A stretch of DNA of 33,878 nt. It comes from Flavobacteriales bacterium (GTDB lineage: Bacteria > Bacteroidota > Bacteroidia > Flavobacteriales_D > Crocinitomicaceae). Positions 6,428-32,869 of this stretch are shown here, piece by piece (the stretch's first letter is position 1; each line of letters begins with the position of its first letter). The position numbers and the translations under genes are program-made. The DNA lies in assembly GCA_947453795.1 (NCBI GenBank), contig CANGIC010000008.1:1-33878 (forward strand). The letters are read 5' to 3'. Under the pieces are notes generated by a model. The model saw only the letters and a list, made by a program, of their open reading frames with translations, ran no database searches and had not been told where the DNA came from.

Positions 6428-9088
6428 ATGCGCCGACTGAAATTTATTTATTTACTTCTTTTTCAAGCATTTTTGCTCTTATCAGGAGCGGGATTTGGCC
6501 AAATTTCTGGAAATGCAAATGTAGTTTTTAGTGTTAACGACGCGCATTTGTCTTGTTTTGATGCCGCTGAAATTGACGAATGGAAAGGCCATTACCAACG
6601 CTTTAGCACCGCGAGTGGCGCCTTGTCCACGATTCCAGTTCTTTCCGTTCAACCGAATCAGTCGTCTACTATAACGGTCACGGTTGCCAACAAGCAATTC
6701 AAAACAAAATGGATTGACTTTAAAATTATAGGTGATCCCAGCGTTAAGGTAAATGTTGAAGAATTGTCAGGTGGCAGATTTGAGCTTACACTTCCCGCAC
6801 GAGAGGAGAACTATTCACTTGAAGTGATTTACAACGGGGAACAGCGAATTGGCCAATTGGATCTCAGGGTTTATGCTGAGCGCCAAGTAGAAGTCATTCT
6901 AGTTCCTCTTGTTCAGTCCGAACTGGATACTCAAATGCTCAGGGCCTACATCAACCGCATTTATGCGCCTACACGCATAAGCTTTAAGATGACACAAGAT
7001 GCGCTGTTCGACCCCAGTATTTTCAGGTCTATCGCGACATTTAATTCGCCTTCGTTGGAATACCGGCAATACACCAATCAAATGCAGGAAGTTCGCGATG
7101 AATATTTTCAGCAAATACCTAATTACAATCAAAATGCCATCTATATCTTTCTCATTCCCGGCTTTAGGTACGCGCAAATAAGTGAATACGCCGTGTTGGG
7201 AAAATCACTCGGATTTGTTGTTTATCAGAGCGACACCACTCAGCTCTACCGTTCCATCGCCCGATCCATAGGTCTAGGTATGGGCCACTTGTCGGTGTCT
7301 TGGGAGGGGGCAGGTCCAGCGCGAATGAGCACGGACAATTTGATGGATGACGATTCGGGAACAGCGCTCTGTGCGTGGCAATGGGATCATATTCGTGTCA
7401 TGCTGGGAAGCACATCCTACTTCGACGATTATGAACAGGTGATAGCAGAAAACGGAAAGGTTGCTTACTTTTTTTGGGAGGAAGACGAGCAGGGAAATAT
7501 TCGTTTGTGGGACAATGATTTGATGTCATCGATTCGGCACCCTTTTAAGCGGAATGTTCAATCCTACCATCTAAACATTGATGACTTCTTGTACGAAACG
7601 AGGTTTACGCTTTGGGAGCGAAAGGTGTCGTTCTGGCACATGATCCTCGTTGTTTTCGGAATCGGATTAGCTGCCTTACTTAAAAAAAGATTGGATCGCG
7701 CCATTGAATCAAGATTTCAGCGACAGTTTTTTCTTAAGGCAATGGTTAAGGTATTCGGGTTGGCATTGGGCTTTGGCATTCTCTATTATGGTTTCATGAG
7801 GATTCAACGAAACTATGCGCAATTTGTGGTGAAATCAGGACCAGTGAAAGAATTAAAAGGAATGACTGAATTTCAAGCCATTCGCGAAGTGAGACAAAAC
7901 AAAAAAATGCAAGGAAGTGATGAAGAATCACTGTGTAATGAAGTGTTGGTGCACAAGAAAAACCAATGGATTAAGTCCAAACGCAAACCAGTTTTGTACT
8001 TTAATGTGACGGTTCAAAAAGAGCAACTCGTTCAATGTACTTTTGATCATGACAGTGATTATTTGACCGTAACAAGTGAAAAATATTCAAAGAAGTCCGC
8101 CAGTCAATACATGGTGTTTAGCTTTAAAGATCAAGCCGGTAAACCCATTCGGCAAGAGGTGTATAATTACAAAGGAAATGAAATCACCTCCTTGCTTCAT
8201 GTGCATGACCCTGCCAAACGGATTTTACTTTTTGTGAATGGTTACAGGTCTTCCTCGACGGCAAATAACTTCCAGGATCAGGTTTGGGATCTTGAAAATA
8301 AAGGGTTTGAATTGCCGAGTTCTACCAATTTGATCTATACTTTTGATCGGTTTAGGTATTGGTATTACAAAGAGTTTGACACCAAGCTTCGCGAAAGAAT
8401 TAATCCGTCGGAGACTTATTATGCCGATGGTAATTTTTCAATTAGCACATCGAATTACCGAACAATAAGGTCTTTCATTCAAATGAATTCAATTTATCCC
8501 AAAAGGTGTGTCAATGAATACCATCATACCTGCTACCATTCGAGTTCTACGGCGAAATGGCTGAGTTTATTTCAATCGGATTACACTATTGATTTACTGC
8601 GCAAGCCCTCGAACAAAAGTGGGTTTAAAACGCGCATGGAAAATGGGAGGGTCGCTGGTCAAAATTTGCTGCAAATGTTGAATGAAGTGCCCAATAAATC
8701 AAAAAATGACACGCTATTCATTGTTGCGCACAGCATGGGATATGCCTATGCCTTGGGTATGATTGAGGAGCTTCGGGGAAAAATAAATTTTGGAGGGTTC
8801 TATATTATCGCTCCGGAAAATGGAGAAGCGGGGTATGTCAATGCAAAAGAATGGCGGGAGCTTTGGCAATATGGCGCCAATTTCAATCGTGGGGAAGAAG
8901 ATGCGCCATGCATCCAAGACGGTATAGCTCCACAGACTGCGGTTGGTGGCTTGGGTAAAATGCATCGAATATATATTCCAAAATCACTTTATGCGAAAAG
9001 AGGATTTTCGGATTCCCATTTTATTGGGCTCTATAAATTCTTATTTGATATCCCTGCCGGGAAAAAAGGACATGTCCAACAACATTGA
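6428..9088 (+). CDS. Membrane protein: inactivated zincin-like ectodomain fused to an alpha/beta hydrolase
   Basis: An 886-residue envelope protein. It has a signal peptide (residues 1-24, MRRLKFIYLLLFQAFLLLSG), a beta-rich region, then a zincin-like region (about 150-330). The expected HExxHxxGxxH helix reads ARSIGLGMGHL (278-288), so the first two histidines and the glutamate are gone, while the downstream TDNLMDDDSGTAL and WQWDHI (302-322) typical of Bacteroidota matrixin-like proteins remain. Two membrane segments follow (about 402-420 and 441-459) with a basic K/R-rich loop between them, which puts the loop in the cytoplasm and both large domains in the periplasm. The C-terminal part (about 595-886) looks like an alpha/beta hydrolase: ILLFVNGYRSS, nucleophile elbow AHSMG with Ser769, and a possible catalytic His864 in SDSHF. 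ATG 6428 is preferred over the TTG at 6422. No family name is recognised for the whole protein; the domain calls are by motif reading. Confidence 0.75.
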   Translation: MRRLKFIYLLLFQAFLLLSGAGFGQISGNANVVFSVNDAHLSCFDAAEIDEWKGHYQRFSTASGALSTIPVLSVQPNQSSTITVTVANKQFKTKWIDFKIIGDPSVKVNVEELSGGRFELTLPAREENYSLEVIYNGEQRIGQLDLRVYAERQVEVILVPLVQSELDTQMLRAYINRIYAPTRISFKMTQDALFDPSIFRSIATFNSPSLEYRQYTNQMQEVRDEYFQQIPNYNQNAIYIFLIPGFRYAQISEYAVLGKSLGFVVYQSDTTQLYRSIARSIGLGMGHLSVSWEGAGPARMSTDNLMDDDSGTALCAWQWDHIRVMLGSTSYFDDYEQVIAENGKVAYFFWEEDEQGNIRLWDNDLMSSIRHPFKRNVQSYHLNIDDFLYETRFTLWERKVSFWHMILVVFGIGLAALLKKRLDRAIESRFQRQFFLKAMVKVFGLALGFGILYYGFMRIQRNYAQFVVKSGPVKELKGMTEFQAIREVRQNKKMQGSDEESLCNEVLVHKKNQWIKSKRKPVLYFNVTVQKEQLVQCTFDHDSDYLTVTSEKYSKKSASQYMVFSFKDQAGKPIRQEVYNYKGNEITSLLHVHDPAKRILLFVNGYRSSSTANNFQDQVWDLENKGFELPSSTNLIYTFDRFRYWYYKEFDTKLRERINPSETYYADGNFSISTSNYRTIRSFIQMNSIYPKRCVNEYHHTCYHSSSTAKWLSLFQSDYTIDLLRKPSNKSGFKTRMENGRVAGQNLLQMLNEVPNKSKNDTLFIVAHSMGYAYALGMIEELRGKINFGGFYIIAPENGEAGYVNAKEWRELWQYGANFNRGEEDAPCIQDGIAPQTAVGGLGKMHRIYIPKSLYAKRGFSDSHFIGLYKFLFDIPAGKKGHVQQH

Positions 9089-9406
9089 TTATTTGAAACC
9101 TTCCATTTTGTCGAATGGAATCTCGATTTCAATTTCGTAATCCTTATGAACACTATGCAAATAAGCGATAAGGTTGTGGATTTTGTTGTTATTCGTTCCA
9201 TCAATCAATTCGAATGTCATCTCTTTAACAAACTTGTTGTCGTCTAAGGCAAATTCAATTCCAGCGAGTTTCGCCATCGCTACACCGTTGTAATACACGA
9301 CATTGTTTTCATTCGTGAATCCTTCTGTGCTGTAGTTTTTCAATACATTACAAGAAGTTAGTGCAAGTAATGCTGCAAAAGCAGTGGAGAAAAGATATTT
9401 TTTCAT
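9089..9406 (-). CDS. Small hypothetical lipoprotein
   Basis: A 105-residue protein starting MKKYLFSTAFAALLALTSCN, a signal peptide with a clear lipobox (LTSC) placing the mature lipoprotein at Cys20. The remainder (YSTEGFTNENNVVYYNGVAMAK onward) is hydrophilic with no recognised domain. An upstream in-frame start at 9433 would add nine residues before the signal peptide and lies upstream of a good promoter box (9421-9428), so the start at 9406 is chosen. Its stop codon directly abuts the stop of the convergent gene on the other strand, with no base between them. Confidence 0.75.
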   Translation of the reverse strand: MKKYLFSTAFAALLALTSCNVLKNYSTEGFTNENNVVYYNGVAMAKLAGIEFALDDNKFVKEMTFELIDGTNNNKIHNLIAYLHSVHKDYEIEIEIPFDKMEGFK

Positions 9407-9420
9407 AGTCTCATTTTTAA

Positions 9421-9428
9421 CAAATCTA
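9421..9428 (-). promoter_or_regulatory. -7 promoter box (TAGATTTG) for the small lipoprotein
   Basis: On the minus strand TAGATTTG matches TAnnTTTG exactly and ends 14 bp before the start codon at 9406. The -33 region is T-rich without a perfect TTTG. The 14-15 bp spacing recurs at the promoters near 16695 and 33598. Confidence 0.55.
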
Positions 9429-9482
9429 CTCAAAAAGTAAGGAAAAAAGTCGAGTAAATGCGAGCGACAGAAAAAATAGTGG

Positions 9483-9872
9483 CTATTGCCTGAAGCGCTC
9501 TCCGCATGCTTTACAAGAATGCATTATTTTCCCAGTAATCGGATAGGTGACTGTCAACAAGCTAAACAGGGAAGCAATCCAATGAGGCAGTGCTTTTTTC
9601 GGAGAATAATCGATAAAAATGTCAGTGGATCCGCAAGAGGGACATTTTGGAACCTGCTCTTTTTCAATGGATTTAAGAAAAATCAATGTCCGCTCGACAT
9701 CTGCCTCCCGAACTTTGGCTTTTATTCCACCTACGGCATTCGCATAAAGTGGATTGATCGTTACGATTTCTTCATCCACCAAGAAGCATTCAATTCCCTC
9801 ATTTTCAAGTGAAATGCGAAATAGGTGTGCATCGATGGAATTGTCAAACCGTTTAATGAGAACGAATCCCAT
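9483..9872 (-). CDS. DUF2007-domain protein with zinc-ribbon-like cysteines
   Basis: A 129-residue protein. The N-terminal ~70 residues (MGFVLIKRFDNSIDAHLFRI to EADVERTLIFL) match the DUF2007 'putative signal transducing protein' pattern, a small alpha/beta domain. The C-terminal part has two CxxC pairs, CPSC (about 79-82) and CKAC (about 121-124), expected to bind zinc. Between them is a hydrophobic stretch (LPHWIASLFSLLTVTYPI) that may be a single membrane segment or a reentrant helix. The gene lies 2 bp after moxR and is probably last in the guaB-side minus-strand cluster. Its cellular role is not known. Confidence 0.75.
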   Translation of the reverse strand: MGFVLIKRFDNSIDAHLFRISLENEGIECFLVDEEIVTINPLYANAVGGIKAKVREADVERTLIFLKSIEKEQVPKCPSCGSTDIFIDYSPKKALPHWIASLFSLLTVTYPITGKIMHSCKACGERFRQ

Positions 9873-9874
9873 GC

Positions 9875-10828
9875 TTACAATAAGCTTTCGATGATTTTAT
9901 CCATCGAATATCCTTCTGCTTCCGCCCGATAATTGCGCACCAATCGGTGACGAAGGATAGGTTTGGCTACCGCTTTAACATCGTCAATGTCTGGGGAATA
10001 ACGGCCATTCAAGGCAGCGTGACATTTGGCGCCTACAATAAGGTTTTGGGAAGCGCGTGGACCTGCACCCCAAGAAATGAAATCTTTGGTTAGCTGAGGG
10101 GCTAAATCGGAGCTGAAGCGTGTTCTACCAACAAGCTTTACTGCATATTCAAGTACATTGTCCGCAACGGGAATCCGACGAATTAATTCTTGGTATTCCA
10201 AGATCTGGTCGCCCGTCAACACATGGTTCAATTGAATGCGGTTGTCGGAGGTCGTTGCCTTAACAATGGCTAATTCTTCGGTATAACTGGGGTAATCCAC
10301 CCAAATATTAAACATGAAACGATCGAGCTGCGCTTCGGGCAAAGGGTAAGTTCCCTCTTGTTCAATCGGGTTTTGTGTCGCTAAAACAAAGAAGGGAGAA
10401 GGAAGGGTATAACTTGTTCCTGCAGCCGTCACCGAGCGCTCTTGCATGGCTTCGAGCAGCGCGGATTGTGTTTTAGGTGGCGTTCTGTTGATCTCATCGG
10501 CCAGGATAATGTTGGAAAACAAGGGCCCTTTAATGAATTTAAAGTTGCGCGATTCATCCAAAATTTCGGAACCAATGATGTCCGATGGCATAAGGTCTGG
10601 CGTAAACTGAATGCGGTTGAAACTTAAGCCCAAGGTTTGTGCTATGGTATTGACCAGCAATGTTTTGGCTAGACCGGGAACGCCCACAAGCAAGCAATGT
10701 CCTCGTGAAAAGATAGAAATGAGTACCTGATCAACGACATCGTCTTGTCCAACGATAACTTTATGGATTTCATTCTTCAATTCTGCGTAATGCGCTACCA
10801 GTTGATCTATTGCCGCTTTGTCTGACAT
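9875..10828 (-). CDS. MoxR-family AAA+ ATPase
   Basis: A 317-residue cytoplasmic AAA+ ATPase of the MoxR family, proteins that act as chaperones for maturation of complexes, often working with VWA-domain partners. Visible motifs are Walker A GVPGLAKT (about 54-61), Walker B IILADEINR (about 107-115), sensor-1 ATQNPIEQEGTYPLPEAQLD, and an arginine-rich C-terminal lid ending LRHRLVRNYRAEAEGYSMD. Length is normal. It lies 33 bp downstream of the SurA-like gene and 2 bp upstream of the DUF2007 gene, so it is probably co-transcribed. No VWA or DUF58 partner gene is present in this window, although such genes often neighbour moxR. Confidence 0.93.
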   Translation of the reverse strand: MSDKAAIDQLVAHYAELKNEIHKVIVGQDDVVDQVLISIFSRGHCLLVGVPGLAKTLLVNTIAQTLGLSFNRIQFTPDLMPSDIIGSEILDESRNFKFIKGPLFSNIILADEINRTPPKTQSALLEAMQERSVTAAGTSYTLPSPFFVLATQNPIEQEGTYPLPEAQLDRFMFNIWVDYPSYTEELAIVKATTSDNRIQLNHVLTGDQILEYQELIRRIPVADNVLEYAVKLVGRTRFSSDLAPQLTKDFISWGAGPRASQNLIVGAKCHAALNGRYSPDIDDVKAVAKPILRHRLVRNYRAEAEGYSMDKIIESLL

Positions 10829-10861
10829 GTTGTTTGAATTATTCTACTACTAAATTAGAAA

Positions 10862-12214
10862 CTAATTGTTGGACCATTTATTTCTGAAGACGCAATTTAC
10901 AAAGGATTCATCAATACGGATGTATGCATTTCCAATCTTTTGTTTTACCCAGTTGTTCACGGTTTTTTGTTTCTTGTCATTTTCAGTGGCACGCTTAATT
11001 AAGGCATAATCGTCTGTAAGATTCGCGCGGTGTGGCTGTGTTCGATCCATCAAGCGCACCATACGAATTCCTTGTTTACGGTCAAAAATATCGTAGTAGA
11101 GGTTGGGTTGGGAGAGGTCTCCTTTTTCCATGGCATCTGTAATGAGGAAAATTTGTTGATCGACTTGACTCAAATCTTCCATATCCCATGTTTGTTCTCC
11201 GGTGATGGGGTTGGTAATGATACCTTGGTTTTGTCGTGTTCGTTCGTCATTAGAGAATCGAACCACGGCCTGTTCCCAGGTGATTTCATTGCGTTTCAGC
11301 AGCTGGTAGCAGGAGTCCATTTTCAACGAAGCCAATTCCAATTCTCGGCCACTAAACTCTGCGATAATTAAGATGTGTTGGCAAATGTAATCGTCACCTT
11401 TGCGGGAATTGAGTTTGACGATGTGGTAGCCGTATTCAGATTCGAAGATATCTGAAATTTCACCCGGTTCGAGGGAGAAGACAGCAGATTCAAATTGTGG
11501 GACCATCATGCCTCGGGATGCTTCAATTTTTCCACCTTGGGGTGCGCTTCCCGGATCCATGGAATGGATACGCGCTTGGGTGTCAAAACTCTTTCCTGCT
11601 AAAACGGCTTTCCGGATATCGGCCAATTTCTCATAAGCCATTTGCTTATCTTCCTTCGTGATTTGCGGGAAAACAACGATTTGTTGGAAGCTTAGCTGGG
11701 AGTTAATGAGTGGGATGGAATCCGCCGGAATCGTGGCGTAAAAGTCTTGAACTTCTTTTGGAGTAACGGATATGGCTGAGGTAATTTGTCGTTCCATCTC
11801 ATCTGCCAACAAACGGTCTTTGATGATGTCGCGGAATTCTTCCTTGATCTGAGAAGCCGTTTTTCCGTAAAATTCTTCCATCTTTTCGCGGCTACCGAAT
11901 TTCTCCTCAATGATGCGCAATCGGTTCTCCATTTCGGCATCTACCTGCTGGTCAGAGATCTCGATACTGTCTAATTTTGCTTGATTGATGAGCAATTCCT
12001 GGTACATCAATTCTTCTAGAATTTGGCAATCGGTTTCTTTCGTGATTTCAACGCCCCCCTGAAGCATCTGAATTTTTTGCGATTGAAGATCTGAAAGGAG
12101 AATAATGTTGTCTCCGACCTGTGCCGCAATTTTGTCCACAACTTCTGGTTGCGCCGAGGCATTGAACGTAAAACAAAAAAATGCTATACTACTAAGGATG
12201 AATGTTGATCTCAT
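10862..12214 (-). CDS. SurA-like periplasmic peptidyl-prolyl isomerase/chaperone
   Basis: A 450-residue periplasmic protein with a signal peptide (MRSTFILSSIAFFCFTFNASAQ). The SurA N-terminal chaperone domain (about 23-165) begins VVDKIAAQVGDNIILLSDLQ. One clear parvulin domain follows (about 170-275: SFQQIVVFPQI, SMDPGSAPQGGKI, GYHIVKLNSRKG), then a second, more divergent parvulin-like region (about 277-400, ICQHILIIAE and RFSNDERTRQNQG). The role is to escort unfolded outer-membrane proteins. Its start overlaps the end of the upstream gene by 23 bp, implying translational coupling. A run of nine A sits 2 bp before the ATG, inside the upstream coding region, and may act as an A-rich ribosome-loading sequence. 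It is the third of three foldase-like genes in a row. Confidence 0.9.
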   Translation of the reverse strand: MRSTFILSSIAFFCFTFNASAQPEVVDKIAAQVGDNIILLSDLQSQKIQMLQGGVEITKETDCQILEELMYQELLINQAKLDSIEISDQQVDAEMENRLRIIEEKFGSREKMEEFYGKTASQIKEEFRDIIKDRLLADEMERQITSAISVTPKEVQDFYATIPADSIPLINSQLSFQQIVVFPQITKEDKQMAYEKLADIRKAVLAGKSFDTQARIHSMDPGSAPQGGKIEASRGMMVPQFESAVFSLEPGEISDIFESEYGYHIVKLNSRKGDDYICQHILIIAEFSGRELELASLKMDSCYQLLKRNEITWEQAVVRFSNDERTRQNQGIITNPITGEQTWDMEDLSQVDQQIFLITDAMEKGDLSQPNLYYDIFDRKQGIRMVRLMDRTQPHRANLTDDYALIKRATENDKKQKTVNNWVKQKIGNAYIRIDESFVNCVFRNKWSNN

Positions 12215-25569: not shown

Positions 25570-25588
25570 GATTAACCTATTTCAAATC
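25563..25588. terminator. Weak inverted repeat between convergent genes
   Basis: GATTTGA (25563-25569) and TCAAATC (25582-25588) are perfect 7-bp inverted repeats with a 12-nt loop that spans the 7-bp gap between the two convergent stop codons. AT-rich and without a long T-run on either side, it may act weakly as a bidirectional terminator. Confidence 0.35.
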
Positions 25589-27172
25589 CAATTTAAACTC
25601 CGATGTCTTGTGGAAAGTCAAATCAGGATAATCTTGTTCAGCCATGTTCAATAGGAACTGCGTTTCCGCTAAGAATACCAAGTTGTTGTCTTTGTCCTTG
25701 GCCAAATAATTGCCTTTGGCTCGCTTGAAGGATTCCAGTTGTTCCTCATTTTCTGTGGTAATCCAGCACGCTTTGAAGTAGTTCTTTGGGGAAAAACGGC
25801 AATTCGCACCGTATTCGTGAATCAAACGGTAATTGATGACCTCGAACTGAAGTTGTCCGACCGTACCAACAATCTTTCTGTTACCTGGCTGCATGATGAA
25901 CATCTGAGCCACACCTTCGTCAGTCAGCTGGTGAATGCCTTTGTCGAGCTGCTTCGATTTCAATGGATCTAAGTTTTCCAGTTCCATGAAAATTTCTGGT
26001 GAGAACGACGGAATTCCTTTGTAGAACATATTTTCACCTTCCGTGAGTGTATCTCCAATCTTAAAGTTTCCCGTGTCGTACAATCCGATGACATCGCCGG
26101 GGAATGCCTCATCGATGACACTTTTATCCTGCGCCATGAAAGAGGTAGGATTGGGAAACTTGAAGTTCTTGTCCAAACGCACGTGATGGTAAAATTTATT
26201 GCGCTCAAAGCGACCAGAAACGATGCGTAAGAAAGCAATTCGATCGCGGTGCTTTGGGTCCAGGTTGGCGTGAATTTTAAAAACAAAACCAGAAAATTTC
26301 GCATCATTCGGATGGATAAAACGCAAATCTGATTCTCTACCAATAGGTGAAGGGGAGATGGTGATGAATGTGTCCAATAACTCTTGCACCCCAAAGTTGT
26401 TTACTGCAGATCCAAAAAACACTGGAGCCACTTCGCCTGATAGGTATTTTTCACGGTCAAAGGCATCGTACACCCCATCGATGATGTCGAGCTCTTCGCG
26501 CAGTTCTGCGGCAAATTGTTCACCCACCAAATCATCAATCAAGGGGTCAGAAAGTTCAGAAATGGAAACCACATCATCCGCTTTTTTTGTCTTGCTCGCC
26601 GAAAATAAATTGAGGTTTTTATTGTAGATGTTGTAGACCCCTTTGAAGCGATCCCCCATACCGATAGGCCAGGTGAGCGGACGTACTTTAATGTCCAATT
26701 TATCCTCTAATTCATCAAGTAATGTAAAGGGATCCTTCCCTTCTCGGTCCATTTTGTTGACGAAGATGATTACAGGCGTGTTGCGCATCCGACACACCTC
26801 CATGAGTTTTTCTGTTTGAGATTCTACACCATTGGCGCAGTCGATCACAAGGATGACACTATCTACCGCTGTGAGTGTTCGGTAGGTGTCCTCTGCGAAA
26901 TCTTTGTGACCTGGAGTATCCAAGATGTTGACTTGCTTGCCACCATATTCGAAAGCCATTACCGATGTTGCCACGGAGATTCCCCGTTGCTTTTCGATTT
27001 CCATGAAGTCGGACGTCGCGGTTTTCTTGATTTTATTGTTTTTTACCGCACCCGCTGTTTGAATCGCACCTCCGAAAAGCAGCAATTTCTCCGTTAATGT
27101 CGTTTTACCGGCATCGGGGTGGGCAATGATGCCAAAAGTGCGGCGCTTTTCGATGGCTTCCTGGTACTTCAT
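25577..27172 (-). CDS. prfC: Peptide chain release factor 3
   Basis: A 531-residue translational GTPase that recycles release factors RF1/RF2 from the ribosome. G motifs are G1 [10 protein letters not shown] (about 19-26), G2 region [14 protein letters not shown]3 [14 protein letters not shown], and G4 [10 protein letters not shown], followed by RF3-specific domains with [22 protein letters not shown]-like [16 protein letters not shown], and a C-terminal [19 protein letters not shown]. The ORF is open further upstream through the tRNA-His gene, but the start at 27172 ([19 protein letters not shown]) matches the family and lies after the tRNA terminator. The ~40 bp between that terminator and the start must carry the promoter, or read-through occurs. 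Confidence 0.97.
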
Positions 27173-27211
27173 GTGTATTTCGGTTGAGGCAAAAATGCCC
27201 GTATTATCAAT

Positions 27212-27242
27212 AAAAAAAGGAAACCGCACGCGATCTCCTTTT
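27212..27242 (-). terminator. Intrinsic terminator after tRNA-His
   Basis: On the minus strand an 11- to 13-bp hairpin (including two G-U pairs) forms between positions 27230-27242 and 27215-27227 and is followed by seven U (27212-27218). It begins six bases after the 3' end of the tRNA and separates the tRNA transcript from prfC. Confidence 0.85.
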
Positions 27243-27247
27243 CTTTG

Positions 27248-27322
27248 GGAGGAAGATGGGTCTCGAACCCACGACCTCTGGTACCACAAACCAGCGCTCT
27301 AACCAACTGAGCTACAACCTCC
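27248..27322 (-). tRNA. tRNA-His (anticodon GTG)
   Basis: The minus strand folds as a tRNA. The D arm is GCTC / GAGC, the anticodon arm is CTGGT-TTGTGGT-ACCAG with anticodon GTG (histidine), and the T arm is GTGGG-TTCGAGA-CCCAT. The 5' end begins GGAGGTTG, where the first G can serve as the extra G at position -1 pairing with C73, both identity elements for histidyl-tRNA synthetase. The 3' CCA is not encoded (CCA is added after transcription). The acceptor stem as read pairs GGAGG with CCTCC and the basal G with C, but contains two adjacent U-U mismatches (positions 5-68 and 6-67 in the usual numbering). Confidence 0.95.
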
Positions 27323-28565: not shown

Positions 28566-28643
28566 GTTATAATGAACTTTAAACCACTACAGGAAAACTA
28601 TTCATCCGATTTATATTAAATTTAGCGCAATCAATAAAAATGA

Positions 28644-28668
28644 ATCTCTTGGTTTTTTAACTAGAGAT
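28644..28668. other. Imperfect palindrome upstream of the SGNH gene
   Basis: ATCTCT (28644-28649) and AGAGAT (28663-28668) form a 6-bp inverted repeat with a few further pairs inside. It lies 52 bp before the start at 28721, in the 155-bp gap that precedes the glycan-type cassette. Function, if any, is unknown; no TAnnTTTG box with a good -33 is seen in this gap. Confidence 0.3.
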
Positions 28669-28720
28669 GATTTGTATTGGTTTGATTATGTGAATATTTC
28701 ACTTCTGAAGTTTAAAATAT

Positions 28721-29296
28721 ATGAATTGGGAAACACTACTTTGCGTTGGTGATAGCATCACTATTGGTTCTCGTTCTTATTTGGGATACCCCGAATATTG
28801 CGGGGGATTTTTATCCGATGAGACAAAGAAAAAATGGAACGTGTTGAATCATGCCGTGGCAGGATACACAACGATTGATCTGGTGCGCAGCATCGATCGC
28901 AACTATAACCATTTGAAAAGCGCAAAACCTGACATTGCCACTGTAATGATTGGAACAAATGACTTAAAATCAAACACTTCTTTAAAATTGTTTAAACTAA
29001 GCTACGAACTGTTGGTGGTTAAAATGCGGCTTCTTATCGGTAATGCAAACATTGTCCTTGTCGCTATTCCTAAACTGATGAATGATGTTATGCTCCCGTA
29101 CAACATCGGAATGAATACCTTGGTTGACCAATACAATGTGATCATTAGAGAAATTGCCAACGAGAATGGGTTAAGACACATGGAACTTTCGTTGGACGCT
29201 TCTTGCTTTTACGATGGCGTGCATTTGAATGAAGAGGGAAGTGAACACATTGGAAAACAATTGTCTGATTTTATTCTAGCATTGAGAAGAGGTTAA
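28721..29296 (+). CDS. SGNH/GDSL-type hydrolase
   Basis: A 191-residue cytoplasmic SGNH hydrolase with no signal peptide. Block I is CVGDSITIGSR (nucleophile Ser12), block II HAVAGYTTIDLV (oxyanion Gly), block III VMIGTNDLKS (Asn), and block V DGVHLNEEGS (Asp165, His168). The family contains esterases, lipases and carbohydrate O-acetyl transferases or esterases. Its stop codon overlaps the start of the epimerase fusion by one base (TAATG), so the two are translationally coupled, and a role in trimming or acylating the product of the following enzymes is a plausible inference. An exact substrate cannot be read from sequence. Confidence 0.9.
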   Translation: MNWETLLCVGDSITIGSRSYLGYPEYCGGFLSDETKKKWNVLNHAVAGYTTIDLVRSIDRNYNHLKSAKPDIATVMIGTNDLKSNTSLKLFKLSYELLVVKMRLLIGNANIVLVAIPKLMNDVMLPYNIGMNTLVDQYNVIIREIANENGLRHMELSLDASCFYDGVHLNEEGSEHIGKQLSDFILALRRG

Positions 29297-31662
29297 TGAC
29301 TAAAAAAATCCTTGTTGTCTTCGGAACGCGACCAGAGCTCATTAAGTTGGCTCCGTTAATCTTGGATTTGAAAAAATCACCAATAAAGGATCAGCTGGTT
29401 CTTGTTTCCACGACACAACATGAGGAATTGCTGGAGGAACAGCTGAAGCATTGGGAAATCATTCCCGATTATTATTTAACACCGACCAATCAAAAAGGCA
29501 GTTTAACGCGCTTGCTTGCACATACGCTTTCTGGTTTACAAGATATTGTAGATCAACTGGATTCACTCGAATATATTCTGGTTCAGGGCGATACCAATAC
29601 GTCATTGGCCTGTGCAAACTTGGCATTTCTAAATCAGATTAAACTGTTGCATGTTGAAGCTGGCTTGCGTTCTTTCGATGACAAAAATCCCTTTCCTGAA
29701 GAGTACAACAGGACAATAGCTTCTCGTGTAGCTCATTTTCATTTTGCGCCAACAGAAACATCAAAAAAGAACCTACTTCGTGAGGGAATTCCTTCATCGA
29801 AAATAATGGTCACGGGCAATACCGTTGTGGATGCTTTATACCTGACGAAAAAAAAGAATCTCGCGAAAGTAAGTAGCGACACGGTGTTAATTACCCTTCA
29901 CCGAAGAGAGAATATTGCATTCAATTATCTGATATTAACAACGCTTGTAAGTGAATTGGCTGTTAAGCACCCGGATTTAAATTTTGTATGGATCACCCAC
30001 CCGAATTGTGCCGATAAAATTCATTCAGAAATTTCAAAGGCGAAAAACATTCGTATTTATAGTCATTTGCCGTATCAAGAGTTTGTGGATTTGTATGACA
30101 CCTCAAAAATGGTCATTACAGATTCAGGCGGTGTAACTGAAGAAGCTGTTCAATTGGGTTTACCTACCATCGTTTTTAGACAAACAACTGAACGCGTGGA
30201 AGCACTTGATGAAAATTATCCAATGATTGTCTCGCTGGATAAAAAACAAATACACGCTTTTTTTGCTGAAAACTTGAATCAAAAAAACACGAAGTCTTTT
30301 TCTTATGGTCGCGGTGACGCATCTCAACAAATTTCGCATTGGATTCAAAGAGCGTTGAATACAACGACATATGATATCGCTGTCGTAGGTGGTGGTCCTG
30401 CTGGAACAGGATTACTGCTCAAAGCCATGAAGGATAAGTCATGTGCGGAATTATTTGATAAAAAATTGCTACTTATTGAGAAGTCAGACCAACTCATCAA
30501 AGGAAACATTACCCAGTTTAAGGTCAATAGCGACACCTATGCTGATGTCTTTTTGGAATGCCTTGAAGGAGCAATGGACGAATACATCAATATGGCAGAG
30601 TTAAAGCGCGAAATGGAATATATCCATCAATTCAACGGAAAGTCCATACCACTAGAAAAACTAGATCATTACTTCACGAAATTGGGTGGACTTATACGGG
30701 AAGCACTGACGAAGCGCAAGGCCTGTGATTTTATGATGAATACCAAAGTCAATAAGGTTGTTCGAACAGACGATGGCTTATTCTCTTTGTTTTTCGAAGG
30801 TCGGGAAGAGGTTATTCAAGCCAAGAAAGTGGTCATCGCTACTGGAGGAATTCCTCAAGACATCACCCAGGATCGATTGCTCTTTGCGGAAAAAGTGGAT
30901 TTAGGCAAATGGGCCAACAAATGTGTCCATTCGGATGACTTTCTGAAAAATGGGATTCCAAGCAAGATCTTGAAACAACTGAAAAACAATTCAAAAGTGC
31001 TCATTCTTGGAGGAAGTCACAGCGCCTTCTCGGTAGCACATTCGCTGCTGAATAGACAAGAAGCCATAGATTTTGGTGACCAAGAAATTAAAATTTGGAG
31101 TACTTCCATACCTAAAATTTATTTTGAATCGAAAAAAGAGGCACTTGCTCAAGGATATACAGATTTTTCAGAAGAAGACATTTGTCCCATTACAAAGAAA
31201 GTTTACCGCCTCGCGGGTTTACGCATGGATGGACGAGAACTGTATATGCAGATGGGCGGATTGTCAGGGAGTACGCCAGAAACACGCGTGAAACTTCATA
31301 TTATAAAGGATGATCTTGCTGAACTTGAAGAAGAAATTCAATCGTCCACGTTGATCGTTTTGGCTTTCGGTTATGCATTTAACATTTTCCCCATTTATGA
31401 TTGTTCAGGGTTAAGAATGAAACTTGCTGGTGAAACGACAAAACATTGGGTAAATGAAAAGTGTGAAGTACTTGAACGCGAAGGAAAGGTTGTTCCAAAT
31501 CTTTACGCGACAGGATTGGCTACAGGTTTTATACCCCGAGGAGAATTGGGAGGAGAGCTAAGTTTTTCAGGCCAAACGAATGGGATTTGGTATTATCAAA
31601 ATGCCATCGCCGAACGCATCATTAAACAGCTGGACAGTGAACATTCTGCAAATTTGTCATAA
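29296..31662 (+). CDS. Fusion: UDP-GlcNAc 2-epimerase (WecB-type) + FAD-dependent monooxygenase-like domain
   Basis: A 788-residue two-domain enzyme. Residues 1-355 are a complete non-hydrolysing UDP-N-acetylglucosamine 2-epimerase: VVFGTRPELIKLAPL, QGDTNTSLACA, LLHVEAGLRSFD, PFPEEYNR, and TDSGGVTEEA. WecB makes UDP-ManNAc for surface polysaccharides. Residues 359-788 are a flavoprotein: FAD Rossmann YDIAVVGGGPAGTG (GGGPAG 365-370), a second Rossmann VLILGGSHSAFSVA (572-577), AFGYAFNIFP (690-698), and ATGLATGFIPRGELGGEL near the end. The second Rossmann and the AFGY segment (compare ATGY) recall N-hydroxylating monooxygenases such as lysine/ornithine hydroxylases. The domains are joined with almost no linker, in one frame. 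It overlaps the upstream SGNH gene by one base and the downstream glycosyltransferase by 26 bp. I know of no described fusion of this kind. Confidence 0.88.
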   Translation: MTKKILVVFGTRPELIKLAPLILDLKKSPIKDQLVLVSTTQHEELLEEQLKHWEIIPDYYLTPTNQKGSLTRLLAHTLSGLQDIVDQLDSLEYILVQGDTNTSLACANLAFLNQIKLLHVEAGLRSFDDKNPFPEEYNRTIASRVAHFHFAPTETSKKNLLREGIPSSKIMVTGNTVVDALYLTKKKNLAKVSSDTVLITLHRRENIAFNYLILTTLVSELAVKHPDLNFVWITHPNCADKIHSEISKAKNIRIYSHLPYQEFVDLYDTSKMVITDSGGVTEEAVQLGLPTIVFRQTTERVEALDENYPMIVSLDKKQIHAFFAENLNQKNTKSFSYGRGDASQQISHWIQRALNTTTYDIAVVGGGPAGTGLLLKAMKDKSCAELFDKKLLLIEKSDQLIKGNITQFKVNSDTYADVFLECLEGAMDEYINMAELKREMEYIHQFNGKSIPLEKLDHYFTKLGGLIREALTKRKACDFMMNTKVNKVVRTDDGLFSLFFEGREEVIQAKKVVIATGGIPQDITQDRLLFAEKVDLGKWANKCVHSDDFLKNGIPSKILKQLKNNSKVLILGGSHSAFSVAHSLLNRQEAIDFGDQEIKIWSTSIPKIYFESKKEALAQGYTDFSEEDICPITKKVYRLAGLRMDGRELYMQMGGLSGSTPETRVKLHIIKDDLAELEEEIQSSTLIVLAFGYAFNIFPIYDCSGLRMKLAGETTKHWVNEKCEVLEREGKVVPNLYATGLATGFIPRGELGGELSFSGQTNGIWYYQNAIAERIIKQLDSEHSANLS

Positions 31663-32836
31663 GCCCTGTTATCCGCCCATTGACGGTGGTTCAATTGCAT
31701 CCTACAACCTTTATCAGGGTCTCGTTGCGAATGGGCATAATGTGCATGTTTTGGCCATGAATACCTACAAACAGCACTGCGACATCGCACAGGTTCCAAT
31801 AGATTTTCGTGAAAAGTCAAGCTATACGCTTGTTGACGTAGATATTCGCGTGAAGGTGCTACCTGCACTTTTCAATTTATTTTCAACGCGCTCTTACAAC
31901 ATGGAGCGATTTCATTCAAAAGATTTTAGCGCAGCACTTGCAAAGATTTTAGCGGAAAATAAGTTTGATATTATTTTGTTGGAAACGCTATATACTGCGC
32001 CTTATATTGGTTTATTGCGGGAAAAGTCTGAAGCAAAAATTGTGTTGAGGGCACATAATGTGGAATACAAGATTTGGGAGAATCTGTCCCGAAATGAAAG
32101 GAACCCATGTAAAAAGTGGTATTTATCCTTGTTGACGCGTAGGTTGAAACGCTATGAAACAAATGCCTTGCACCAAGTTGAGCTCATTGCATCTATCAGT
32201 GAAGAGGACAATAAGATTTTCAAGAAGGACGGATGTACGACCCCTATGATGTACCTCCCCTTCGGAATTGACATGAATCACGAAGAATTCAAGACCTATG
32301 AGGTGTTAGATGAACGTCAAATTGTACTCTTTCATTTGGGATCTATGGATTGGCTACCACACCAAGAAGCCATGCGTTGGTTTTTGGAAAAGGTATGGCC
32401 CAAAGTTTCAACGAATCATCCTCAGCTTCATTTATTTCTTGCCGGTTCATATATGCCCGATTGGATAAGTAAGGGACAATTTCCAAATGTTACCGTTACA
32501 AAAGGATATGTCGAAGGAAGTGTTTTTATGCGCCATAAGCCCATTATGATTGTACCTTCATTTTCGGGTAGCGGCATACGCATTAAAATTGCAGAAGGCA
32601 TGGCCAAAGGAAAAGTGATCTTAACCACGACAAATGGTGCGATGGGCATTCCTGCTGTGCATGGCGAAAATATTTTCATTTCAGACAATTATGAGGAGTG
32701 GGTGAGGATCATTGATTGTTGTGTAAATGAGGTAGAAATGCTTCGGCAGATTTCAGCCAATGCGCGTTCCTTTGCCCAAAAAGAATACGATTATGTTTTG
32801 TCAGCACACAAATTTATTGAGGTGATGACGAATTGA
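31637..32836 (+). CDS. Family 4 glycosyltransferase
   Basis: A GT-B fold glycosyltransferase of about 400 residues. The N-terminus NILQICHKPCYPPIDGGSIA is the acceptor-side opening of family 4 enzymes (glycine-rich loop), with VLRAHNVEYKIWENL and PFGID (sugar-nucleotide linker), then IVLFHLGSMDWLPHQEAMRW and the donor-site GSGIRIKIAEGMAKGKVIL, whose glutamate lies in IAEGMA. The preferred start is the GTG at 31637 (read as Met before NILQICHK), because the frame is open further upstream to 31580 but that extension lies in another frame of the fusion gene. The overlap with the fusion gene is 26 bp, implying coupled translation. It probably transfers a sugar derived from the upstream epimerase product; donor and acceptor are unknown. 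Confidence 0.88.
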   Translation: MNILQICHKPCYPPIDGGSIASYNLYQGLVANGHNVHVLAMNTYKQHCDIAQVPIDFREKSSYTLVDVDIRVKVLPALFNLFSTRSYNMERFHSKDFSAALAKILAENKFDIILLETLYTAPYIGLLREKSEAKIVLRAHNVEYKIWENLSRNERNPCKKWYLSLLTRRLKRYETNALHQVELIASISEEDNKIFKKDGCTTPMMYLPFGIDMNHEEFKTYEVLDERQIVLFHLGSMDWLPHQEAMRWFLEKVWPKVSTNHPQLHLFLAGSYMPDWISKGQFPNVTVTKGYVEGSVFMRHKPIMIVPSFSGSGIRIKIAEGMAKGKVILTTTNGAMGIPAVHGENIFISDNYEEWVRIIDCCVNEVEMLRQISANARSFAQKEYDYVLSAHKFIEVMTN

Positions 32837-32869
32837 TCAGAATGGCACAATCAAAAATAAAAGTGTGAA

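Follow-up and report, generated by a model that had tools for sequence, protein, structure and literature searches.

The window analysed here is a stretch of 33,878 nucleotides of a contig from a Flavobacteriales bacterium, in which three genes on the + strand follow each other closely. The first (28721-29296) codes for a cytoplasmic SGNH/GDSL-type hydrolase of 191 amino acids (Pfam Lipase_GDSL_2, E 1.5e-21) with the motifs GDSI at residue 10, GTND at residue 78 and DGVH at residue 165. It shares 1 nt with the second gene (29296-31662), an ATG-started reading frame open for 788 codons, in which a WecB-type epimerase is joined to a two-Rossmann flavoprotein. The third gene, coding for a GT4-family glycosyltransferase (31637-32836; Pfam Glyco_trans_1_4 / Glyco_transf_4), overlaps the fusion gene by 26 nt. 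Its start is likely the GTG at 31637, as judged by comparison with position 11271 of L011, a contig of an independent Bacteroidia MAG in which the same 26-nt overlap is present. Elsewhere in the window, the PrfC-like ORF at 25577-27289 has an N-terminal extension that probably reflects an over-long start call.

L011 carries the SGNH hydrolase, the fusion and the GT4 in the same order, with identities to the window proteins of 63% for the hydrolase and 59% for the GT4. Its fusion protein (8918-11296, 792 amino acids) has the same architecture and is 57% identical over the fusion (61% in the epimerase half, 55% in the flavin half). In an AlphaFold2 model of the whole window protein (28-row alignment, mean pLDDT 85.6, pTM 0.80), residues 342-355, the last epimerase helix, lead without a break into the first strand of the flavoprotein (357-364). 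Because of this direct continuity the fusion has no real linker, as had been proposed for a junction at about residues 355-359, and L011 shows the same ungapped junction. Between the two fusion genes, the third codon position has diverged more than the first and second, both before and after the junction, which shows protein-level selection on the whole frame. The fusion is real, and neither chance nor a frame error can account for it. The source assembly of the window comprises 265 contigs, which might suggest a misassembly or a gene in decay, a possibility to which we assign a vanishingly small probability and which is already refuted by the same fusion, with ungapped junction and selection on both of its sides, in the independent MAG; intact motifs further argue against decay. 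The first-pass annotation had named an error at the junction, a lack of any second fusion and missing FAD-binding residues as grounds for giving up its claim; instead, the L011 fusion exists and the FAD-binding residues are present. All WecB and flavoprotein motifs quoted there for an uninterrupted 788-codon frame were located. No paper on a WecB::flavin fusion was found in the limited literature collection searched, which is weak evidence.

The N-terminal half (residues 1-350; 29296-30345, + strand) is assigned by TIGR00236, by alignment to E. coli WecB (1f6d) and by the model to the non-hydrolysing UDP-GlcNAc 2-epimerases (WecB class, PF02350). Residues 4-349 match TIGR00236 with 289 bits (cut-off 210), and the NeuC_NnaA model scores 77, far below its cut-off of 236. 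The catalytic residues K17, D99, E121, E135/E136 and H202 are kept in the alignment to 1f6d, and the motifs from HVEAGLRSFD (residues 119-128) to PEEYNR (residues 134-139) lie at 29650-29712 (+ strand), followed by SGGVTEEA at residues 277-284. Modelled residues 1-358 align with the 2-epimerases 5dld/4nes with a Z of 42.5 and an rmsd of 2.1-2.4 (VIA-align), and with Z values of 41-42.5 over 341-354 residues the half shows the GT-B-like fold typical of these enzymes. The likeness to WecB/MnaA thus extends over the whole fold (Z of about 42 to 5dld, 4nes, 3beo and 1f6d) and the catalytic residues, whereas the window enzyme differs in being fused to a flavoprotein, in a shorter loop after NTVVDAL and in the replacement of some allosteric UDP-GlcNAc contacts. 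In the putative allosteric site, placed by alignment to 3beo, Q41 and H235 are kept and E44, K67 and G68 differ from WecB. We take these positions to be UDP-GlcNAc contacts of WecB-type enzymes, and because several of them differ, the substrate of the epimerase is not certain. A single-protein search of viral contigs with the epimerase half found no match; an alignment-based search of viral contigs gave 15 ordinary 2-epimerases, which served only to deepen the alignment of the AlphaFold2 model.

By Pfam, profile and model, the C-terminal half (residues 356-788; 30361-31659, + strand) is an FAD/NAD(P)H-binding flavoprotein resembling class B and N-hydroxylating monooxygenases. Residues 359-585 match Pyr_redox_2 above the cut-off, so that, with TIGR00236 likewise above its cut-off and the architecture recurring in L011, the joining of a complete epimerase to a complete flavoprotein holds. 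The FAD and nicotinamide dinucleotide motifs and an AxGY motif occur in order: GGGPAG (residues 365-370; 30388-30405, +), of which G365, G367, P368 and G370 are invariant in alignment A4; GGSHSAFS (residues 572-579; 31009-31032, +), in which GGSxSA is invariant in the same alignment; and AFGY (residues 690-693; 31363-31374, +), the counterpart of the ATGY motif of N-hydroxylases, whose A, G and Y are invariant in alignment A3. The family furthermore has two signatures of its own, DxCPxxxxxxRxAGxRxDxREL and the glycine-rich loop GGExSFxGQxNGxW. The former appears here as DICPxxxxxYRLAGLRMDGREL (residues 628-648; 31177-31239, +) and contains the only invariant cysteine of the alignments, C630. 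The stretch ATGLATGF...GELGGELSFSGQTNG (residues 738-763, with ATGLATGF at 738-745; 31507-31584, +) is a loop that is highly conserved in the alignments and of low confidence in the model. The GGExSFxGQxNGxW loop is among the most conserved and at the same time least confidently modelled parts of the protein, as would be expected of a ligand-gated loop, and the loop at 738-763 is likely ligand-binding. The Bacteroidota clade lacks HRR after the second strand of the NAD(P) domain, which is present in family members linked to DegT, a difference that bears on the nicotinamide preference.

The flavin half had been called N-hydroxylase-like. PF13434 (Lys_Orn_oxgnase) is matched with 24.7 bits against a cut-off of 21.3, only over flavin-half residues 133-238, and is outscored by both Pyr_redox_2 and FAD_binding_2. 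A profile of the flavin family has thioredoxin reductases as its top sequence matches and reaches SidA and PvdA across both Rossmann motifs with E values of 5e-4 to 8e-4. In structure comparisons with a model of the flavin half (31 alignment rows, pLDDT 87.6), SmFMO (4a9w) gave a Z of 22.4 and YpdA one of 21.6, with KtzI, EtcB, DesB, DfoA, PvdA and SidA at Z 18-20; residues 354-786 of the whole-protein model align with flavin monooxygenases at a Z of 23 (VIA-align), and Foldseek ranked ferredoxin-NADP reductases level with N-hydroxylases. With SidA, PvdA, KtzI and DfoA (PF13434) the flavin half shares the two-Rossmann fold over residues 2-434 of its model, the GxGP FAD motif, the GGxxSA nicotinamide motif and the AxGY motif. 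However, identity is 12-15%, the flavin family has its own signatures, in fuller form DxCPxSGxVxRxAGxRxDxREL, besides GGExSFxGQxNGxW, and its member here bears no sign of an amino-acid substrate. The flavin half keeps the N-hydroxylase-like label on the grounds of its fold class and its gene neighbourhood, but its matches in sequence and structure do not set N-hydroxylases apart from the remaining class B monooxygenases or from TrxR/YpdA-like reductases. That the flavin half is a TrxR/YpdA/FNR-like reductase or oxidase with another partner, without oxygenation of a substrate, would accord with the thioredoxin reductases and FNRs among the best sequence and Foldseek matches and with the Z score of YpdA, yet we consider it quite improbable. 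No CxxC was found in residues 356-788, arguing against a disulfide reductase such as thioredoxin reductase; the sole invariant cysteine lies beyond the NAD(P) motif in a family signature, and the genomic company of the family is nucleotide-sugar and CMP-amine synthesis.

The three-gene set is a rare accessory cassette at a variable site. Only 2 of the 240 genomes of the window's family have the flavin half, and in a phylum sample of 395 genomes the other 394 gave no flavin match. The site (28566-32869) is flanked by a lipoprotein gene and a small secreted gene; two same-genus relatives (L141 and L142), whose DinB-like neighbour is 97-99% identical, have other single ORFs there in place of the cassette. 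A second genome of the family, G028, shows the cassette in pieces on two contig ends, the join itself lying outside both: one end (L121) has the SGNH hydrolase (56% identical to that of the window, at the same place) and epimerase residues 1-253, the other (L004) the flavin C-terminus and the same GT4 (45%). In another Bacteroidota MAG (L012), the flavin gene stands alone after a second GT4; this second GT4 (L004 1-295, L012 8716-9891) is common to G028, where it comes after the cassette, and L012 and is absent from the window. Neither a known deacetylase nor a known aminotransferase is encoded in the cassette. The window's genome has two further DegT genes, both on short contigs on which no flavin gene is visible.

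Scanning 85,000 genomes yielded 164 relatives of the flavin half, of which 80 were kept; plasmids gave 9, and viral contigs and phages none. The WecB::flavin architecture occurs in the window and L011. Many Sphingomonas and related genomes (L005 and most of L015-L090) instead have the flavin domain C-terminal to a DegT aminotransferase, the order is reversed in Granulicella (L006) and a Rhodospirillales MAG (L017), and five loci (L014, L021, L045, L048 and L077) have separate adjacent genes for flavin protein and DegT, mostly with a 4-nt overlap. The DegT partner keeps the PLP lysine context SMHATK and scores nearest to the 4-aminotransferases DesI/PseC/ArnB, below their cut-offs. In Kushneria (L053), a GT2 gene comes after the flavin gene, and then the gene set for dTDP-4-amino-4,6-dideoxyglucose, RmlB, RmlA and a DesI-like aminotransferase. 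The Sphingomonas fusion, where annotated, is called only a DegT/DnrJ/EryC1/StrS aminotransferase, and a GT2 gene often follows it. Among the Sphingomonas neighbours scanned, the downstream GT2 is the only sugar-related one, the rest varying between peptidases, L,D-transpeptidases and a HAD hydrolase. A Shinella homologue sits within an NRPS-PKS cluster. In the tree of the flavin family, the FrbH/NRPS branches are very long, so that the rooting and the placement of those rows are unsafe.

A further setting is found on plasmids. On pBM700 of Priestia megaterium (L008, 5581-13685), the flavin gene lies between ATP-grasp genes and a gene for an AAC(3)-type acetyltransferase, and the set also includes a nucleotidyltransferase/CobD-HisC-like (PLP-decarboxylase-like) fusion and a second DXR. 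On an Erwinia plasmid, the neighbours of the flavin gene are an AAC(3)-type acetyltransferase and a fusion of nucleotidyltransferase and PLP-decarboxylase-like parts, and Rahnella is alike by annotation. These neighbours resemble FrbH, which we take to be a nucleotidyltransferase with a PLP decarboxylase, and FrbF, presumably of AAC(3) type, both with assumed roles in FR-900098 synthesis; they are present in Priestia, Erwinia and, by annotation, Rahnella, and absent around the window. By analogy, the Priestia and Erwinia sets resemble what FR-900098-type synthesis would be expected to need. The pBM700 set also recalls fosmidomycin-type synthesis, and its second DXR may give self-resistance; DXR is the target of FR-900098 (PMC13302981). 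In the sets of the Erwinia rhapontici (L007) and Rahnella sikkimica (L010) plasmids, the AAC(3) part occurs as an AAC(3)-FkbH fusion and a CDP-alcohol phosphatidyltransferase is present; the product may be lipid-linked or resemble a phosphonate.

The FAD N-hydroxylase of FR-900098 synthesis is FrbG, which according to PMC7347517 acts on CMP-linked aminopropylphosphonate (Nguyen et al. 2019, cited there), is class B-like and recognises the nucleotide moiety (CMP) by its NADPH domain. Flavin-family members of the Priestia, Erwinia and Rahnella plasmids stand in FR-900098-like gene sets, whereas that of the window has a UDP-sugar enzyme as its fusion partner, and the likeness of the family to FrbG is a putative one. 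FrbG did not appear in a phmmer search of flavin homologues against the PDB, nor among the structure matches listed by Foldseek and VIA. On the nitrogen that FrbG hydroxylates, PMC7347517 and PMC13302981 disagree, giving the amine or the N-acetyl amide, which matters since UDP-ManNAc offers an amide.

Judging from gene content, a nucleotide-activated amine appears to be what unites the genomic settings of the flavin family, and for this reason we favour N-oxygenation of a nucleotide-bound amino sugar. In our best explanation, for and against which we hold the balance to be about even, the fusion would be a bifunctional nucleotide-sugar enzyme, forming a UDP-ManNAc-type sugar and, in the service of a surface glycan, oxygenating the nitrogen of a UDP-amino sugar. 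Its N-terminal half would convert UDP-GlcNAc and UDP-ManNAc into each other, or act on a UDP-2-acetamido sugar closely related to them. The other half, as a single-component FAD/NAD(P)H monooxygenase working like FrbG, would bind a nucleotide-activated amine or amide and oxygenate its nitrogen, the coupled SGNH hydrolase would remove an acyl group, and the GT4 would transfer the sugar, so that the surface glycan would come to bear an N-oxygenated amino sugar. The fusion and its recurrence, the intact catalytic and cofactor motifs, the fold classes, the operon and the genomic company of the flavin family (DegT, RmlA, RmlB and FrbH/FrbF-like genes) are what the data show; the N-oxygenation, the nucleotide sugar as substrate, the order of the steps, the role of the SGNH hydrolase and the product are what we infer. 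In favour of this explanation we count the complete epimerase, both dinucleotide motifs with the ATGY-like motif, PF13434 above cut-off, the reach of the profile to SidA and PvdA, the model matches to FMOs and N-hydroxylases, the DegT, Rml and FR-900098-like company and the cassette of L011 and G028; against it count the thioredoxin reductases as top profile matches, the parity of FNRs in Foldseek, the absence of HRR and the changed allosteric positions. Its main weakness is that UDP-GlcNAc and UDP-ManNAc carry an acetamido group and no free amine, and that the cassette has no evident source of an amine. The SGNH hydrolase might deacylate the sugar, the amide nitrogen might be oxidised, or an amine might come from elsewhere in the cell. 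The first-pass proposal that the flavin domain could oxidise an amino-sugar nucleotide is strengthened, short of proof, by the separate DegT fusions and the FR-900098-like plasmid clusters.

In the known pathways of ECA and capsule synthesis, WecB is usually followed by an oxidation, and the flavin half might accordingly oxidise carbon instead, either a hydroxyl of UDP-ManNAc or by another insertion of oxygen, and thereby pull the unfavourable epimerisation as the NAD-dependent WecC does. The formation of a ketone before transamination would also fit the DegT fusions, and the FAD/NAD(P)H fold suits either reading. However, known sugar-nucleotide dehydrogenases have other folds, flavoproteins of this kind take electrons from NAD(P)H and do not pass on those of an alcohol, and the FrbG-like plasmid clusters call for N-hydroxylation rather than alcohol oxidation; we regard carbon oxidation as unlikely. 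Rather improbable, too, is N-hydroxylation of a small amine or amino acid that is later attached to the sugar, the fusion then serving only to co-localise or co-express pathway enzymes. The cassette lacks a ligase or acyltransferase for such an attachment and every fusion observed in the family has a nucleotide-sugar enzyme as partner, even though ornithine, lysine or diamines are the substrates of most enzymes characterised with this fold (PMC7347517) and the Shinella homologue belongs to an NRPS-PKS cluster.

If the preferred reading of N-oxygenation is extended to the whole family, we would propose, tentatively and with less than even confidence, that an unrecognised FrbG-like family N-oxygenates nucleotide-activated amino sugars for surface glycans, that it was fused more than once (to DegT in both orders and to WecB), and that the WecB version makes an N-hydroxyl UDP sugar, either a hydroxamate or a hydroxylamine. 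To our knowledge, a UDP sugar bearing an N-hydroxyl group has been described for no cell-surface polymer. N-oxygenases of NDP-amino sugars are CalE10, a P450, and KijD3/ORF36, which are acyl-CoA dehydrogenase-like. These would share with the proposed flavin half the chemistry on nucleotide-bound amino sugars, but their folds are unrelated and their setting is that of antibiotics, not surface glycans.

The family is currently annotated only as hypothetical or swallowed by the DegT aminotransferase annotation, though many Sphingomonas carry it. Its partners point to nucleotide-activated amines as substrates. N-oxygenated sugars are known so far mainly from antibiotics; if our proposal is true, the fusions would name candidate substrates and such sugars would be ordinary parts of the surfaces of environmental bacteria.
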